The notes beneath the pieces were generated by a model. It was given only the letters and a program-made list of their open reading frames with translations, was not told where the DNA came from and ran no database searches. This document shows positions 28,206 to 53,498 of a stretch of DNA of 64,000 bases, in pieces. The stretch covers positions 496,001 to 560,000 of the forward strand of contig NZ_CP132932.1 of NCBI RefSeq assembly GCF_040358985.1, read 5' to 3'. Position 1 is the stretch's first letter, and each line of letters begins with the position of its first letter. Made by a program: the position numbers and the translations under genes. The stretch is from Tunturibacter empetritectus. Its GTDB lineage: Bacteria; Acidobacteriota; Terriglobia; Terriglobales; Acidobacteriaceae.

Positions 28206-28675
28206 GCTGACCAATCTCTACTTTCAAAAAATTGCGCGCAACGAGCTAATCCTTCACTCTATCAGCGCAAAGAATCTCTCTCTATCCCGACCAGCGGGAG
28301 GGCACAATCGATCCTTCCACCCCAGAAAAGGTACACAAGTCACGAAGTGACCGCCCCACGCGCAGTGGGCCCGTCCGGCAGGACAGAAGCACGCGCAGCG
28401 GGCCCGTCCGGTAGGACCGGTCATTTCCACTCTCCGCCGCGCCTAAATAATCACAAATCCCCCAACAAATCGATCAAATCCCTACAACCTTTTCAGCCAC
28501 ACCAAGGAACCCTGCTCTGTCAATATTTCGCAACAAACGATATATATTCGTGTCTAATCATTTGAGCACTTGACCCGGGAACTCCCAGCCGGGCTGGAAC
28601 TCGTCCTTGCTCTCCGCGAAGTCCGCCGCACGACGCAACCCCGGATAACCGAAGGCTGAGCAGGAAGGTAGCGCT
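28206..28675. other. Divergent intergenic region with dispersed repeat
   Basis: A 470-bp gap between murC (-) and the YXWGXW gene (+). It contains the direct repeat at 28321-28420 and, at about 28440-28560, AT-rich DNA likely to hold promoters. Two GGAACT boxes (28578-28583, 28596-28601) followed by CGTCC resemble ECF-sigma -35 elements, but the spacing to a -10 GTC is not ideal. No gene was seen. Confidence 0.45.
28321..28420 (+). repeat. Dispersed palindromic repeat, copy 1
   Basis: Core 28321-28385 contains GTCAC-GAA-GTGAC and GCCCCAC-GCGC-AGTGGGC hairpins followed by CCGTCCGGCAGGACA. A second half-unit (ACGCGCAGCGGGCCCGTCCGG) follows at 28390-28416. The same 65 bases, with one substitution, recur in the same orientation at 31782-31846, and a shorter copy lies at 53439-53498. 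No coding capacity or terminal transposase was seen; it behaves like a REP or MITE-type element. Confidence 0.88.
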
Positions 28676-29938
28676 ATGACGTTCACCCGCCTCTTCAGAA
28701 ACTCACTCGGTGTAGCAACACTAGCCGGCTTCACGCTGGCCATGCCGCTTATGGCCCAAGCTCAAGTCGAACCCTACAACCCCAACGATCAATACGGCTC
28801 TCCCGCCGCCCAGCAGGCTCAGCAGGATCCCCAATTCGCGGCCCAGCAGCAGGACAACACCGCGTCGCAGCAGTACGCCCCCCCTCAGCAATATGGCGAC
28901 CCCAACCAGGGACCTCCACAGCAGTACGGCGATCCCAACCAGGGCGCGCCCCAGCAGTATGGAGCACCTCAGCCCGGACAACCCCAGGGCATCGAGCAGG
29001 CCCCACCCCAAATCCCCGACTACGAGCAGCCCCCCGCCCCCGGTGATGGCTATATATGGACCCCCGGCTACTGGGCCTGGACCGCTGATGGCTATCAGTG
29101 GGTTCAGGGCGCATGGGTACTCGCTCCCTACTCCGGAGCCCTCTGGACCCCTGGCTACTGGGGTTTCAACGACGGCTACTACTGGAACGCAGGTTACTGG
29201 GGTCCCTACGTCGGCTACTACGGCGGCATCAACTACGGCTTCGGCTACTTCGGCATAGGCTTCTACGGCGGATACTGGGGCGGCGGCCGCTTTTACTACA
29301 ACCGCGCCTACTGCAACATCGGTCGCGGATGGCATGGCGGCAACTTCTACAATCACTCCTATAACGGTTACTCCGGCCGCCCTGGCGGAGCCAGCTTCAC
29401 TCACGTGAACAACACCGCCTATCACGGCAATAACTTCTCCGGCGCTCGCGGCTCCAGCATCAACGGCCACAGCTTCGCCCAATCCAACGTCGGCCGCGGC
29501 AATCCGGCAGGCTTCGGCGACCACAGCATCCACACCGGCTATAGTGGAGCAACCGCCAACAACGGAACCGCCCGCGCCTACAACGGCACCGACGCCAATG
29601 CAGGCCGCACCTACAGCAATGCCGGTGCGAACTACAACGCAAGCCGCGCTTACAGCGGTAGCAGCGCGAACTACAACGCAGGCCGAACCTATGCCGGCAA
29701 CAGCGCCTACAGCGGAGCCTCTCGCGGCTACTCGCAGCCAGCCGCTGCACAGAGTCACGCTAACTACGCCAGCGCTCCCCACGCCTCATACTCCGGTGGA
29801 GGTAACTACGGCGGAGGCGGTTCGCATGGCGGAGGCGGCTATAGCGGCGGCGGTGGAGGAGGTGGCTTCCATGGCGGTGGTGGCGGCGGAGGCGGTGGCG
29901 GCGGATCACACGGCGGCGGTGGCGGCGGTCATCGCTAA
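28676..29938 (+). CDS. YXWGXW-repeat exported protein, Gly-rich tail
   Basis: A 420-residue secreted protein with a signal peptide (TRLFRNSLGVATLAGFTLAM ... AQA, residues 3-30). A Gln/Pro-rich segment with tandem QYGDPNQG units (about 60-110) is followed by the YXWGXW-type repeat block: YIWTPGYWAWTADGYQWVQG, LWTPGYWGFNDGYYWNAGYW. Then come a Tyr/Gly-rich stretch, an Asn/Ala/Ser-rich repeat region and a poly-Gly/His tail (GGGGGGFHGGGG and similar). Such proteins are thought to be envelope or extracellular structural proteins; function is unknown. AGGAAGG lies 8 nt before the ATG and a strong terminator follows at 29973. It is monocistronic and opposite to the surrounding dcw genes, between murG and murC. 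Confidence 0.83.
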   Translation: MTFTRLFRNSLGVATLAGFTLAMPLMAQAQVEPYNPNDQYGSPAAQQAQQDPQFAAQQQDNTASQQYAPPQQYGDPNQGPPQQYGDPNQGAPQQYGAPQPGQPQGIEQAPPQIPDYEQPPAPGDGYIWTPGYWAWTADGYQWVQGAWVLAPYSGALWTPGYWGFNDGYYWNAGYWGPYVGYYGGINYGFGYFGIGFYGGYWGGGRFYYNRAYCNIGRGWHGGNFYNHSYNGYSGRPGGASFTHVNNTAYHGNNFSGARGSSINGHSFAQSNVGRGNPAGFGDHSIHTGYSGATANNGTARAYNGTDANAGRTYSNAGANYNASRAYSGSSANYNAGRTYAGNSAYSGASRGYSQPAAAQSHANYASAPHASYSGGGNYGGGGSHGGGGYSGGGGGGGFHGGGGGGGGGGGSHGGGGGGHR

Positions 29939-31781: not shown

Positions 31782-31846
31782 CCCAGAAAAGGTACACAAG
31801 TCACGAAGTGACCGCCCCACGCGGAGTGGGCCCGTCCGGCAGGACA
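31782..31846 (+). repeat. Dispersed palindromic repeat, copy 2
   Basis: Matches 28321-28385 with one clear substitution (CGCGGAG for CGCGCAG), in the same orientation. Together the two copies bracket murG and the YXWGXW gene as 65-bp direct repeats 3.46 kb apart. Confidence 0.88.
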
Positions 31847-32978: not shown

Positions 32979-34352
32979 CTAAATTAATTGATTCACCAAC
33001 TGCCGAAACACGCGACCGCGATGCTCATAGTTCTCAAACTGGTCGAAGCTCGAACACGCAGGCGACAGCAGCACCACATCGCCCGTCACAGCAGCCTTAG
33101 CCGCCTCAGCCACCGCCGTCTCCATCGTTCCCGCTGCCACCATCTTCACGACTCCGTGCAGCTGCCGCTCAATCTTTTCTGCAGCTGAACCAATCGTATA
33201 AACAACCTTCACCCTCTCCTTCAGCAACTCGGCCATCAGCCCATAGTCCGAATCCTTATCCTTCCCGCCAAGAATCAGGTGAACACCCTTGCTGAACGAA
33301 GCCACAGCCTTCATCGTCGCATCCACATTCGTCGCCTTAGAGTCATTGTAGAACTCAACCCCATTCAGCTTCCGCACCAGCTCCAGCCGGTGCTCCACCG
33401 CCGTAAAGCTCGCCACAGAAGCCCGAACACTCTCCGCCGAAACCTTCGCCAAACGAGCCGCACACACCGCAGCCAGCACATTCTCGATGTTGTGCGCACC
33501 CTTCAGAGGCACTTCCGAGACCGGCATCACCGGCTCCGTCACCCCGCCCTCCTTCTCCACCCATACAATCACGCCATCCCGCACAAACGCGCCCTTCCGC
33601 ACGGCCTTGGTCCCACTGAACCAGAACACCTCGCTCTTCGCCCGCGCCGCACACATCTGCGTCACGCGATCATCTCCGTTCAACACCAGCGCGTCCCCAG
33701 CACCCTGCCGCTCGAAGATCCTCTCCTTTGCCGCCACATACCTCTCGAAGCTGCCATGCCGATCCAAATGGTCCGGCGTAATATTCAGAATCACGGCAAT
33801 CCGCGGATGAAACTCCTCCACCGTCTCCAGTTGGAAGCTCGAAACCTCCAACACATTCACCGTCTCAGGCGTACTCTTCGCCACCAGATCAATCACCGGC
33901 AGACCGATATTCCCGCCCACCTGCGTCGGCACCCCTGCATCACTCAGGATCTTCCCCACCAGCGTCGTCGTCGTCGTCTTCCCATTCGATCCAGTAATCG
34001 CCACCACCTGCCCTTGCAGATAGCGACTCGCAAGTTCCAACTCTCCAATCACCGTCAACCCAAACGCGACGACCTGCTTCACCTCCGGCGTATCCATCGG
34101 CACACCCGGCGAGACCACAATCAGATCCTGCCGCCGAAACGTCAGAAGCCCATGTCCACCCGACTCAACCATAATCCCCGCTTCCAGCAACGCAGGAATC
34201 TCTTGCGCCAGCGCAACCGCACTACGCGTGTCGCTTACCGTAACCCGCGCCCCCTGCGCACGCAGAAACATCGCCGCCGACAGCCCGGACTTCCCCAACC
34301 CCACCACCAACACCCGCTTATTCTTCAAATCCATCATGCCCAACACTCTCAT
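32979..34352 (-). CDS. murD: UDP-MurNAc-L-Ala--D-glutamate ligase
   Basis: An ATP-dependent cytosolic ligase adding D-Glu to UDP-MurNAc-L-Ala. I chose the ATG at 34352 because it overlaps the mraY stop (ATGA), giving coupling; alternatives at 34337 and 34334 begin MMDLKNKRVLVVG. The product (457 residues) has RVLVVGLGKSGLSAAMFL, the P-loop AITGSNGKTTTTTL, NITPDHLDRHGSFE and the C-terminal FYNDSKATNVDATMKAV and LILGGKDKDSDY motifs specific to MurD. The frame extends further upstream into mraY but is not needed. Confidence 0.95.
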   Translation of the reverse strand: MRVLGMMDLKNKRVLVVGLGKSGLSAAMFLRAQGARVTVSDTRSAVALAQEIPALLEAGIMVESGGHGLLTFRRQDLIVVSPGVPMDTPEVKQVVAFGLTVIGELELASRYLQGQVVAITGSNGKTTTTTLVGKILSDAGVPTQVGGNIGLPVIDLVAKSTPETVNVLEVSSFQLETVEEFHPRIAVILNITPDHLDRHGSFERYVAAKERIFERQGAGDALVLNGDDRVTQMCAARAKSEVFWFSGTKAVRKGAFVRDGVIVWVEKEGGVTEPVMPVSEVPLKGAHNIENVLAAVCAARLAKVSAESVRASVASFTAVEHRLELVRKLNGVEFYNDSKATNVDATMKAVASFSKGVHLILGGKDKDSDYGLMAELLKERVKVVYTIGSAAEKIERQLHGVVKMVAAGTMETAVAEAAKAAVTGDVVLLSPACSSFDQFENYEHRGRVFRQLVNQLI

Positions 34353-35485
34353 CGCAGCTTCAAAGTAGTCAACGCGAACAAAGCAAACACCAGCGCCAGA
34401 ATCCAAAATCGCGCAATCACCTTCGACTCCGACCATCCCATCAACTCAAAGTGATGGTGCAGCGGAGCCATCTTGAAGATGCGCTTCCCGTTCCTCAGCT
34501 TATAGCTCCCCACCTGCAGCATCACGCTCAACGCCTCAAGAATAAACACCCCGCCAATAAACGGCAGCAGCAACTCCTGCTTAATCACAACCGCCACCGT
34601 TCCAATCGCCCCACCCAGAGCAAGGCTCCCAACATCCCCCATAAAGATCTCAGCCGGATGAGCGTTATACCAAAGGAACCCGATACTAGCGCCCACCATC
34701 GACCCGCAAAAAACCGTCAGTTCGCTCACCATCGGCATTCGCTGCAGCTCAAGATAATCAGAAAACACCACATGCCCACTGACATAGGTCAGCACCGTCA
34801 AGGCTCCAGCCGCAATGATCGTGCACCCAATCGCCAACCCATCCAATCCATCGGTCAGATTCACCGCATTGCTCGCGCCCGCAATCACGATCATCACAAA
34901 CACAACGAACGGCACAAACACCAGCCAGTGCATATGTGGAATATGCCCCATCCACTCCCACACCAGGTCCGGCCTGAATCGCTTTGCAAACGGCACCATC
35001 AGCCGTGTCGAGTAGCCCCCGCGAATCTCCATCACCACCAGCGCAGCCGCGACCAGCCCACTCGCAATAAACTGCAAACCCAACTTCGCCCTCGCCGTCA
35101 GGCCTTGATTCTGCCGGTGCACCACCTTGATATAGTCATCCGCAAATCCAATCGCCCCAAACGCAAGCGTAGACAGCATCACCAGCCACACATAGGGATT
35201 CGAAAGATCCGACCACATCAACGTCGGCACCAAAATCGAGATGCAGATCAGCACCCCGCCCATCGTCGGTGTCCCACTCTTCTTTTGGTGCGACTGCGGT
35301 CCCTCTTCCCGGATGTATTGCCCAATCTGAAACTCGCGCAGCTTCTCGATCACATACGGGCCGATCAGCAACCCGATCAGCAGCGCCGTAAGGCTCGCAA
35401 ACACAGTACGAAACGTCAGATATCGGAATATGCGAAACAGCCGAAAGTAAGGGAACAGCTTCTGGTACAGCAACCAATAGAGCAA
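34349..35485 (-). CDS. mraY: Phospho-MurNAc-pentapeptide translocase MraY
   Basis: An integral membrane enzyme that makes lipid I from UDP-MurNAc-pentapeptide and undecaprenyl phosphate. Starts at a TTG with GGAGG about 5 nt upstream, giving MLYWLLYQKLFPYF, which aligns with the family N-terminus. Motifs: KKSGTPTMGGVLI, GFADDYIKVVHRQNQGL (Mg-binding DD), ASNAVNLTDGLDGLAIG (nucleophile/Mg Asp), MGDVGSLALGG and the C-terminal MAPLHHHFELMGW. The 378-residue length is normal. Use of TTG may lower its expression. An unknown gene lies between it and murF. Confidence 0.96.
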   Translation of the reverse strand: MLYWLLYQKLFPYFRLFRIFRYLTFRTVFASLTALLIGLLIGPYVIEKLREFQIGQYIREEGPQSHQKKSGTPTMGGVLICISILVPTLMWSDLSNPYVWLVMLSTLAFGAIGFADDYIKVVHRQNQGLTARAKLGLQFIASGLVAAALVVMEIRGGYSTRLMVPFAKRFRPDLVWEWMGHIPHMHWLVFVPFVVFVMIVIAGASNAVNLTDGLDGLAIGCTIIAAGALTVLTYVSGHVVFSDYLELQRMPMVSELTVFCGSMVGASIGFLWYNAHPAEIFMGDVGSLALGGAIGTVAVVIKQELLLPFIGGVFILEALSVMLQVGSYKLRNGKRIFKMAPLHHHFELMGWSESKVIARFWILALVFALFALTTLKLR

Positions 35486-35623
35486 AACGCCTCCGCCTTT
35501 ACCCGCAGCTAATGCCCGTTTTCGTTGCGAGTCACGGCTATCTTAACAGCACCATCCCCCACATCCTTGGTTTATCTCATCTGTGAACCAACTCGAATGC
35601 CCACCGAATCCGAGGTTCTCAGC

Positions 35624-36280
35624 TCAAAGCCCATGCTCCAGAGCAAAGCAGAGCGCATCCGCCGCCATCGCAAGTTCGAACGCCAGATGTGCATCGTGGT
35701 CCGAATCCTCCGCCTGCCGCAGCAACTCCACCGTCACCGGAAAAAGATCCGTCCCCTTGCCGCGCTCTGCGTTCTCGATCTTCTCCAGCCGATGATCCGC
35801 CTCCGCAATAAATCTCTCCAGCCACTCCGGCGAAGGCGACGCTACCCTCTGCCGGTGCTTGTCCCTAGCTGCATACAAACCCGCCAGCGACAGATGCTCC
35901 GCCGCGCGCAAAACCCCAATCGCCCGCAGCACAAACTTGTTGCCCTCTTCACCCTCGGTCGCCTTGCGGTAGAGCTTCACCCCACGCTCCAGCAGATCCC
36001 TCAGATCTTCCCCAGTCCCCTTCTCCATCAACGAGATCACCACCGAAGCCCGCTGCATGTGGTGAAACGCAGTCATAAGCCCATGATCGGTTGCATAGAC
36101 AAATCCAGAACCCGCAACCTTCTCTGCAGCTTTCTTCGCGGCCTTCGCAGCTTTTTTAGCATGCTTGGCGGCATGTTTTGCCGGGTGTTTTTTCGCGGCA
36201 TGTTTCATCGCCTTCTTCGCATGCTTCTTCAGCGCCGAATCGGACTCCCTTTTGACCAGCGCATTCCCATTGCTCGACAT
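35624..36280 (-). CDS. Unknown Lys/Ala/His-rich protein in the dcw cluster
   Basis: I do not recognise this 218-residue protein. Residues 12-55 are a histone-like run of Lys, Ala and His (LKKHAKKAMKHAAKKHPAK and KAAKAAKKAAEKVAG), strongly basic and helix-prone. Residues 60-218 form an all-alpha domain without cysteines: TDHGLMTAFHHMQRASVVISL, GEDLRDLLERGVKLYRKAT, VLRAAEHLSLAGLYAARDK and FELAMAADALCFALEHGL. There is no signal peptide or membrane segment. A clear GGAG-containing ribosome site precedes the ATG at 36280. It sits between murF and mraY in the same direction with gaps of 138 and 101 nt, so it is probably expressed with them. The basic tail could bind nucleic acid or anionic lipid; no function is claimed. 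Confidence 0.8.
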   Translation of the reverse strand: MSSNGNALVKRESDSALKKHAKKAMKHAAKKHPAKHAAKHAKKAAKAAKKAAEKVAGSGFVYATDHGLMTAFHHMQRASVVISLMEKGTGEDLRDLLERGVKLYRKATEGEEGNKFVLRAIGVLRAAEHLSLAGLYAARDKHRQRVASPSPEWLERFIAEADHRLEKIENAERGKGTDLFPVTVELLRQAEDSDHDAHLAFELAMAADALCFALEHGL

Positions 36281-36381
36281 ATCTCTCCACTCCCCTAGGT
36301 TCTAGTACCGCAAATCGGTAAACCAAGCTCGTCAAAATCAAGCCCGGCAAATCAGTCAGATGCGTTTAAACCCCAAGCGTC

Positions 36382-37767
36382 CTACAGCCTTCCGGCAATC
36401 GCCGCCAAAGCCTTCTCCAGGCGCACGCCCCGCGAAGCCTTCAACAACACTACGTCGCTCGGACGCACATTCGCAACCAGCCACTCCCCCGCCTCCTCAG
36501 GGCTCGTGACAAAAAGCGCCTCCGTACCCGCAGCTCTTGCCGCCTCGACAGTAGCCTCGGCCGCGCCCCGTACTCCAAGCACAAAATCTACCCCCCTCTC
36601 CTTCATCCTCGTACCGCACGCTGCGTGCAGCGCAGCCGAATCCGGACCAAGCTCCAGCATCTCCCCCGCAACCACAATATGTCGCTCCGCCGGAATCGCC
36701 ATCAACGCATCGATCATCGCATTCAGCGCCGTCGGATTGGAGTTATAGCAGTCATTGATCAGCGTCGCCCCCCGCCACTCCAGAACCTCGCCACGTTTGT
36801 CTCCTGCCCGCAGTTCACCGACAGCCGCAGCACAATCCCCCAGTCCCATCCCGCTCTGCAGGCCCACTGCAATGGCGGCCAGCGCATTCGGAACATTATG
36901 CCGCCCCAACATCTTCAACTGCACACTCGCACGCTGCCCCCTGGCCTCCACCGTAAACACCACGCCCTCGGTACCCACCTCCGCCACGTTCACAGCTCTC
37001 ACACCCGCACCCTCGCCAAACCCGTAAAACACCGCGCGTTCTCCCAGTCCACGGCCAAACGCCGCCACAAAAGCGTCATCGAAGTTCAAAACCGCGATGC
37101 CGTCCGCGGGCAGTGCCTCAATCAACTCATACTTCGCCCGTGCGATTCCAATTAGTCCCTCCGGAAAGAACTCGAGATGCACCGGCCCCACGTTCGACAC
37201 CACCGCCCAATCGGGCTCCGCAATCCTCGACAGCGCGGCAATCTCCCCCGCGTGGTTCATTCCCATCTCGATCACCGCAACCTCATGCTCCCGCTCCAAC
37301 TTCAGAAGCTGCAACGGTAGCCCAAACGCGTTGTTCAGGTTGCCTGCCGACTTCAGCACCTTGAATTTCGCGCCTAAAACCTGCGCCACGGCTTCCTTGG
37401 TCGTCGTCTTTCCGGCCGACCCGGTTACGCCGATCACCCTCCCGCCCCACTCTCGCCGCACCGCATGAGCCAGTTGCTGCAGCGCCATCAACACACAGTC
37501 ATCGCACGCTGCCACCCGCAACAACCGCCTTTCATCCACCTCAGCCGGCACGACCCATCGATTACTCACTACCGCAGCGACCGCCCCATTCGCAAGCGCG
37601 GCCTCTACATAGTCATGTCCATCCAGTCTCTCGCCGCGAACGGCGAAAAAAAGTTCCCCTGCGCCGATGGTCCGCGAATCAATCCCATAGCCTTCCGCCT
37701 CGGCCGACGTATCGAACTCGCCATCGGCATGAATCCAGTCAGCAATCTTCCCCAAGGTCAGCTTCAC
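36382..37767 (-). CDS. murF: UDP-MurNAc-tripeptide--D-Ala-D-Ala ligase
   Basis: A cytosolic ligase that adds D-Ala-D-Ala to the UDP-MurNAc-tripeptide. GTG start overlapping the murE stop (GTGA, 37764-37767), so translation is coupled. The 461-residue product has the N-terminal DSRTIGAGELFFAVRGERLDGH domain typical of MurE/MurF, the P-loop GVTGSAGKTTTKEAVAQVL, the MGMNHAGEIAALSRIAEPDW motif and the C-terminal LINDCYNSNPTALNAMIDAL segment diagnostic for MurF. No ddl gene is nearby to supply D-Ala-D-Ala, so that must be encoded elsewhere. Confidence 0.96.
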   Translation of the reverse strand: MKLTLGKIADWIHADGEFDTSAEAEGYGIDSRTIGAGELFFAVRGERLDGHDYVEAALANGAVAAVVSNRWVVPAEVDERRLLRVAACDDCVLMALQQLAHAVRREWGGRVIGVTGSAGKTTTKEAVAQVLGAKFKVLKSAGNLNNAFGLPLQLLKLEREHEVAVIEMGMNHAGEIAALSRIAEPDWAVVSNVGPVHLEFFPEGLIGIARAKYELIEALPADGIAVLNFDDAFVAAFGRGLGERAVFYGFGEGAGVRAVNVAEVGTEGVVFTVEARGQRASVQLKMLGRHNVPNALAAIAVGLQSGMGLGDCAAAVGELRAGDKRGEVLEWRGATLINDCYNSNPTALNAMIDALMAIPAERHIVVAGEMLELGPDSAALHAACGTRMKERGVDFVLGVRGAAEATVEAARAAGTEALFVTSPEEAGEWLVANVRPSDVVLLKASRGVRLEKALAAIAGRL

Positions 37768-53438: not shown

Positions 53439-53498
53439 AAGGGGTATACAAGTCACGAAGTGACCGCCCCACGCGTAGTGGGCCCGTCCGGCAGGACA
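53439..53498 (+). repeat. Dispersed palindromic repeat, copy 3
   Basis: A shorter copy of the element at 28321 and 31782: GTCAC-GAA-GTGAC, GCCCCAC-GCGT-AGTGGGC and CCGTCCGGCAGGACA in the same orientation. It fills the gap between the prolyl oligopeptidase and the convergent pgeF gene. Confidence 0.85.

Follow-up and report, generated by a model that had tools for sequence, protein, structure and literature searches.

An undescribed gene behind murF in Tunturibacter empetritectus encodes a basic-tailed helical protein, possibly a polyanion-tethered adaptor

Introduction

What is the gene that lies between murF and mraY in the division and cell-wall cluster of Tunturibacter empetritectus, and does its place there tell us what its product does? 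The window analysed here is a stretch of 64,000 nucleotides (contig NZ_CP132932.1, positions 496,001 to 560,000 of the forward strand), and all coordinates below are those of the window unless another locus is named. An initial annotation, made from the letters alone, had reported an open reading frame in this slot and proposed a lineage-specific factor tied to wall-precursor synthesis or to the coordination of nucleoid and division. Here we refer to it as gene X. The form found behind murF is called type A, and a paralogue found elsewhere in the same genome is called type B.

Results

Gene X is a real gene

Gene X occupies positions 35624..36280, exactly the ends given in the initial annotation, and encodes 218 residues plus a stop codon; it lies on the minus strand, which the annotation had not specified. 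Its neighbors, murF (36382..37767; Pfam Mur_ligase, Mur_ligase_M and Mur_ligase_C) and mraY (34349..35485; Pfam Glycos_transf_4 and MraY_sig1), are both on the minus strand as well, so the shared direction was correctly described. X starts 101 bases past murF and ends 138 bases ahead of mraY. A ribosome site of its own had also been proposed, and a purine-rich stretch that resembles one can be read from the sequence at 36285..36295 (minus strand), with GGGGAG and GGAG placed 15 to 5 bases 5′ of the ATG. Elsewhere in the cluster, a gene for a Gly/Tyr-rich protein with WXXGXW repeats (28676-29938, plus strand) lies between murC and murG, opposite to the cluster.

A match to X was found in 13 of 61 genomes, namely that of the window and 12 of its 60 relatives, all within one of 17 genera. 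Because these orthologues keep the frame, and because dN/dS for residues 67-218 is only 0.034 to 0.054 against five close relatives (0.035, 0.034, 0.034, 0.054 and 0.038), X is more than a chance open reading frame. Against four more distant relatives the values for the same region are 0.14, 0.21, 0.23 and 0.47. For the preceding tail, dN/dS is 0.13-0.17 in the three of the five close pairs where it could be computed; in the other two the silent sites are saturated. We conclude that X is a real gene whose core experiences strong purifying selection.

The protein combines a basic tail with a predicted helical core

Residues 1-66 (36083..36280, minus strand) form a Lys/Ala/His-rich tail with three AKKA motifs, and contain 17 K/R, 6 H and 4 D/E. 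Residues 67-218 (35627..36082, minus strand) make up the core, with 20 K/R and 26 D/E. AlphaFold2 models, based on 27 and 26 aligned members for the two types, contain six core helices in each type, with a mean pLDDT of 77 and 78 overall. In type A these helices span residues 64-215, in core blocks of pLDDT 77-98; the tail is modeled with low confidence, specifically at residues 1-37 and 54-60, with one doubtful helix at 41-55, and is probably disordered. The annotated arrangement of a basic N-terminus followed by a helical, acidic C-terminal domain therefore stands as regards the tail and the predicted helices, although the core is only mildly acidic.

The six helices can be divided into two units of three. 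When helices 1-3 are aligned with helices 4-6 using hhalign, P is 3e-4 with both types pooled, with a probability of just 17%; taken separately, P is 0.001 for type B and 0.055 for type A alone. In a control run with other hhalign options than the P-value alignment, the real score was 29.9, compared with a maximum of 13.5 among column shuffles (0 of 60 reached the real score) and 10.6 for a reversed half. By these profile alignments, the core is an internal duplication of a three-helix unit. In the 27-member alignment, which covers both types, six positions are invariant (M1, H74, R77, H129, E202 and A207) and two are nearly so (R125 and E128).

The tail evolves differently from the core. Its Lys/Ala/His make-up is kept while the individual letters change fast, in the same clade in which the core changes very slowly. 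Across clades the core diverges; in G023, for example, X is 49% identical and MurF 81%. AKKA occurs in 20 of the 27 members, and KPAA in none of the 27. Of the type B tails some are short, as in L032, which has 5 Lys in its first 60 residues.

X belongs to an undescribed family

No model in Pfam, NCBIfam, PHROGs or PADLOC gave a meaningful score for X, bearing out the initial remark that no family was recognised; the X family is named by none of these libraries and is undescribed. Literature searches, which could not reach most subscription journals, found no paper on it. A sequence search of the PDB returned chance-level rows only. Foldseek searches of the PDB with the two types yielded no hit at E ≤ 0.001, and a second look with VIA-align gave best Z values of 6.5 and 6.7 for the two types, which may reflect only a common helical arrangement. 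The same caution applies to the three-helix domains of Borrelia BB0323/BB0238, a chain of which each half of the X core overlays (9q9v_A, Z 6.2, rmsd 1.8 over 69; 6rjx, Z 5.7, rmsd 1.9 over 69), a likeness of structure.

Several known families were considered and set aside. For the chlamydial histone H1-like protein Hc2 (PF07382; curated cut-off 40 bits), X gave no row, and the tail of one member, L014, reached 20.9 bits, below the cut-off. The CHAD domain (PF05235) gave no Pfam row, and hhalign against seven CHAD proteins of relatives gave P 0.10-0.33, no better than shuffled columns. PhoU (PF01895) gave no Pfam row, and hhalign against ten PhoU proteins of relatives gave P 0.14-0.36, so that profile similarity is absent. 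The PhoU fold consists of two three-helix bundles, and PhoU chains are among the second-look rows, though only at Z 4.4 with rmsd 8.4 and Z 3.7 with rmsd 10.0. The HEPN motif is Rx4-6H, from which the conserved spacing in X, R125-x3-H129, differs; no HEPN family appeared among Pfam rows to E 10, a range in which the HMMER filters drop most weak rows. A PADLOC row for JetC against one type B protein (E 8e-4, 15.1 bits, from a MukB-like model of 1365 positions) was taken as an effect of composition. Relatives of X were found neither in plasmids nor in viral contigs, and a mobile origin was set aside as well.

The distribution of the family was assessed by profile searches in three draws of genomes. 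Matches were found in 23 of 299 Acidobacteriaceae genomes, representing 8 of 79 genera, with 10 of the 23 in the genus of the window; in 25 of 399 genomes drawn from the class, 24 of them inside Acidobacteriaceae; and in 8 of 297 genomes from the phylum, all but one belonging to the window's genus. As at most 9 to 13 candidates were scored per genome, absences in these counts are weak. The two matches outside the family were not counted: that in G594 (class draw) is partial, with E 4e-4 over 46 profile positions in a 77-residue frame, and that in G662 (phylum draw; E 3e-4) falls in a 345-residue frame that looks like a TPR protein on reading. Among the genomes drawn, convincing members thus occur only in Acidobacteriaceae, and the proposal of a lineage-specific gene is supported. 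The initial annotation had named a match to a known unrelated family, or absence from relatives, as outcomes that would count against it; neither occurred.

Type A has a patchy presence behind murF

Type A is known from 24 genomes, that is, 23 of 62 in the window's genus and one of another genus, G249. The gene immediately upstream of X is murF in 21 of the 24. The exceptions are G016, where the contig ends; G627, where X lies between genes for a DegP-like protease and a peptidase (M3-type by reading), ahead of mraY; and G007, where a DUF3237-like gene (L010:632-1366, labeled by reading) separates murF from X. Downstream, mraY follows X directly in 21 of the 24; in G021 it lies on another contig, in G249 an acetamidase/formamidase gene intervenes, and G627 is the third exception. 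The division and cell-wall cluster is interrupted at the murF-mraY junction in G021 (L144) and G627 (L147); in G021 the break lies past X, which stayed with murF.

The initial annotation also held that murF and mraY normally adjoin, which is roughly right in the genus. Among 27 loci that lack X and hold both genes, 19 have spacers of about 112-163 bases, two of about 34-36 and six of about 294-775. Long spacers without X occur in G019, G506, G030, G028 and G899, and a translated search of the six long spacers found no relic of X. A 29-base REP-like element, taken as a query from the G028 spacer (L136), has three copies in the window (28341-28369, 31802-31830 and 53454-53482) with 0-1 mismatch, where 0.00 are expected.

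The history of X was followed on a murF tree of 43 genomes, comprising G249 and the 42 of 62 genus genomes with murF on the fetched locus; X is present in 16 rows and absent from 27. Eight type A genomes are not in this tree (G263, G321, G007, G016, G491, G539, G561 and G627). The presence of X requires 8 changes, of which at least six are forced by well supported branches; the mean for shuffled presence is 13.1. Since X is found on several deep branches of the genus, and in the same slot in G249, one old gain followed by repeated loss is the simplest account. The slot of G007, with a DUF3237-like gene and X, compared with that of G015, with a DUF3237 gene (L129:2215-3000) and no X, also fits loss. 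Thus, X has probably been behind murF since before the genus split from a related genus, and has been lost repeatedly. Its place there on several deep branches and in a second genus lends some support to a lasting association of X with murF.

A conserved element precedes mraY with or without X

Between X and mraY lies a conserved element, CTGTTAAGATA (35539..35549, minus strand), which has one match in the window where 0.00 are expected. Its relaxed form, [CT]TGTTAA[CGT]AT, occurs no more than 200 bases ahead of mraY in 53 of 59 loci, made up of 20 of the 22 loci that have X and 33 of the 37 that lack it (G021, where X is on another contig, being counted among the latter). This pattern was chosen after viewing the same sequences; the 194,565 bases scanned, both strands included, contain no sites beyond these 53. 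Because the pattern is kept upstream of mraY whether or not X is present, the element is probably mraY's own signal, lying downstream of X. A scan of positions 35300-36600 for a sigma-70-type consensus found no promoter-like site, and the three terminator-like sites there, against 1.1 in shuffles, mean little.

The type B paralogue lies next to transporter genes

The genome of the window carries a type B paralogue at G000:C1:2358542, with 34% identity to X and E 1e-5 in a sequence search; the profile gives E 1e-40, having already included that copy. This locus (L151:9531-13908, G000:C1 from about 2358530) encodes an HHHDKHH-like linker and has MFS, metallophosphoesterase, CitMHS/ArsB-type and YdcZ-type genes downstream, and a sensor-kinase/response-regulator pair, by reading, on the opposite strand. 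A metal or anion function is possible for it.

An MFS transporter gene lies no more than 400 bases downstream, on the same strand, at 14 of 20 type B loci. In six of these 14 (G000, G132, G249, G342, G273 and G293), metallophosphoesterase and CitMHS/ArsB-type genes are also seen, a lower bound because several of the other loci end early. In G309 the MFS gene is upstream; G277 has phosphoesterase and CitMHS genes downstream without MFS; and none of these neighbors is seen at the type B loci of G625, G305, G243 and G284. One member, L030 (G099), fits neither type. In the type B gene L031 (G333), the first part of the core contains an in-frame TGA, which indicates a decayed gene or a sequencing error.

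Discussion

Our leading interpretation, to which we assign a probability of about one in three, is that X is a cytosolic two-part adaptor that is accessory to the murF neighborhood. The flexible tail would bind a polyanion, most likely nucleoid DNA, and possibly RNA, polyphosphate or an acidic lipid; such binding would be electrostatic and blind to sequence, given that the make-up of the tail is kept while its letters change fast. The doubled core would most likely bind a partner or a small ligand through its six conserved polar residues (H74, R77, R125, E128, H129 and E202), and so hold it at the polyanion. A nucleoid role, as proposed initially, is plausible in that it is compatible with the basic tail. 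An accessory role is suggested by the patchy presence of X and by an mraY motif that is independent of it. Weighing against the adaptor are the 7 of 27 members without AKKA, the short type B tails and a fold search in which no match backs a function.

This interpretation draws on known proteins that would work in a similar way with their parts in reverse order, and AlgP of Pseudomonas is the best working likeness. AlgP is described as a helical domain with a histone-H1-like tail; it binds DNA and is located on polyphosphate granules, and a similar tail is described for PhaF (PMC9239181). They share with X one helical domain and a long Lys/Ala-rich, probably disordered tail. In X, however, the order is inverted, with an N-terminal tail ahead of a C-terminal helical domain, and the C-terminal KPAA-repeat tail of the AlgP/PhaF type, whose members bind DNA, polyphosphate or PHA granules, has no counterpart in any of the 27 members; for these reasons we do not class X with them. 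Nor does X have a phasin or any other Pfam match. HbhA of Mycobacterium tuberculosis, reported as a DNA-binding nucleoid protein (PMC10665949), likewise combines a helical part with an AKKA-bearing basic tail. There, a coiled coil is followed by a C-terminal, DNA-binding, Lys-Pro-Ala-rich tail with five AKKA, whereas X has three AKKA at its N-terminus and a doubled three-helix core.

It is somewhat less probable that X is a passenger, an accessory gene of unrelated function that happens to sit in a variable slot where the murF and mraY units meet. The slot also takes a DUF3237 gene in G015, like the gene beside X in G007, as well as the acetamidase/formamidase gene after X in G249; it is long without X in five genomes, and the mraY motif marks the boundary. 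An old insertion with losses, however, fits the deep branches and the second genus better than chance placement does, and this account is silent on what X does.

Alternatively, the conserved polar residues could be the sign of a metal site or of enzyme activity. X would then be a metal- or anion-binding or enzymatic helical bundle, with a buried site formed by the conserved His, Glu and Arg and a His-rich tail that helps in gathering metal. We regard this as rather doubtful. The His-rich linkers of type B, near MFS and CitMHS/ArsB-type transporters, are consistent with it, and so is the presence of rubrerythrin and of symerythrin among the second-look rows (Z 6.3 and 6.0; rmsd 3.0 over 90); in the PDB sequence search the top row is SmbP, a metal-binding protein, at a non-significant E of 0.11. 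Ferritin-like sites, however, have an E-x-x-H spacing, which is absent from the 27-member alignment, and the Z values lie within the range of common helical arrangements.

The initial proposal of a wall-precursor or division role is weakened by our results. It would make X a helper that uses its core to bind MurF, MraY or their substrate, and its tail to place them at the membrane or nucleoid. The place of X directly behind murF in most type A genomes, including another genus and deep branches, argues for such a helper, as does its retention with murF in G021. Nevertheless, we consider it unlikely: type A is found in little more than a third of the genus genomes, the core varies more across clades than MurF, the type B paralogue adjoins transporters, and mraY has a conserved upstream motif of its own. 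Because the presence of type A changes at least six times, and because that motif is kept with or without X, the wall pathway does not require X.

Least probable by far is that X and its paralogue are a new class of nucleoid-tethered ligand sensors, in which the core would read a small molecule through the conserved polar cluster (a wall precursor made next door for type A, a transported anion for type B) and the Lys/His tail would relay this signal to DNA and so link supply with the nucleoid.

For the polyanion-tethered adaptor that we favor, two implications follow. Since the content of the slot behind murF varies and mraY seems to have a signal of its own, a position in the division and cell-wall cluster is by itself poor ground for a wall function. 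If our interpretation is correct, X would represent an undescribed, taxon-restricted family of Acidobacteriota with histone-H1-like tails, whose doubled three-helix domain, compact and bearing six conserved polar residues, would be directly testable.
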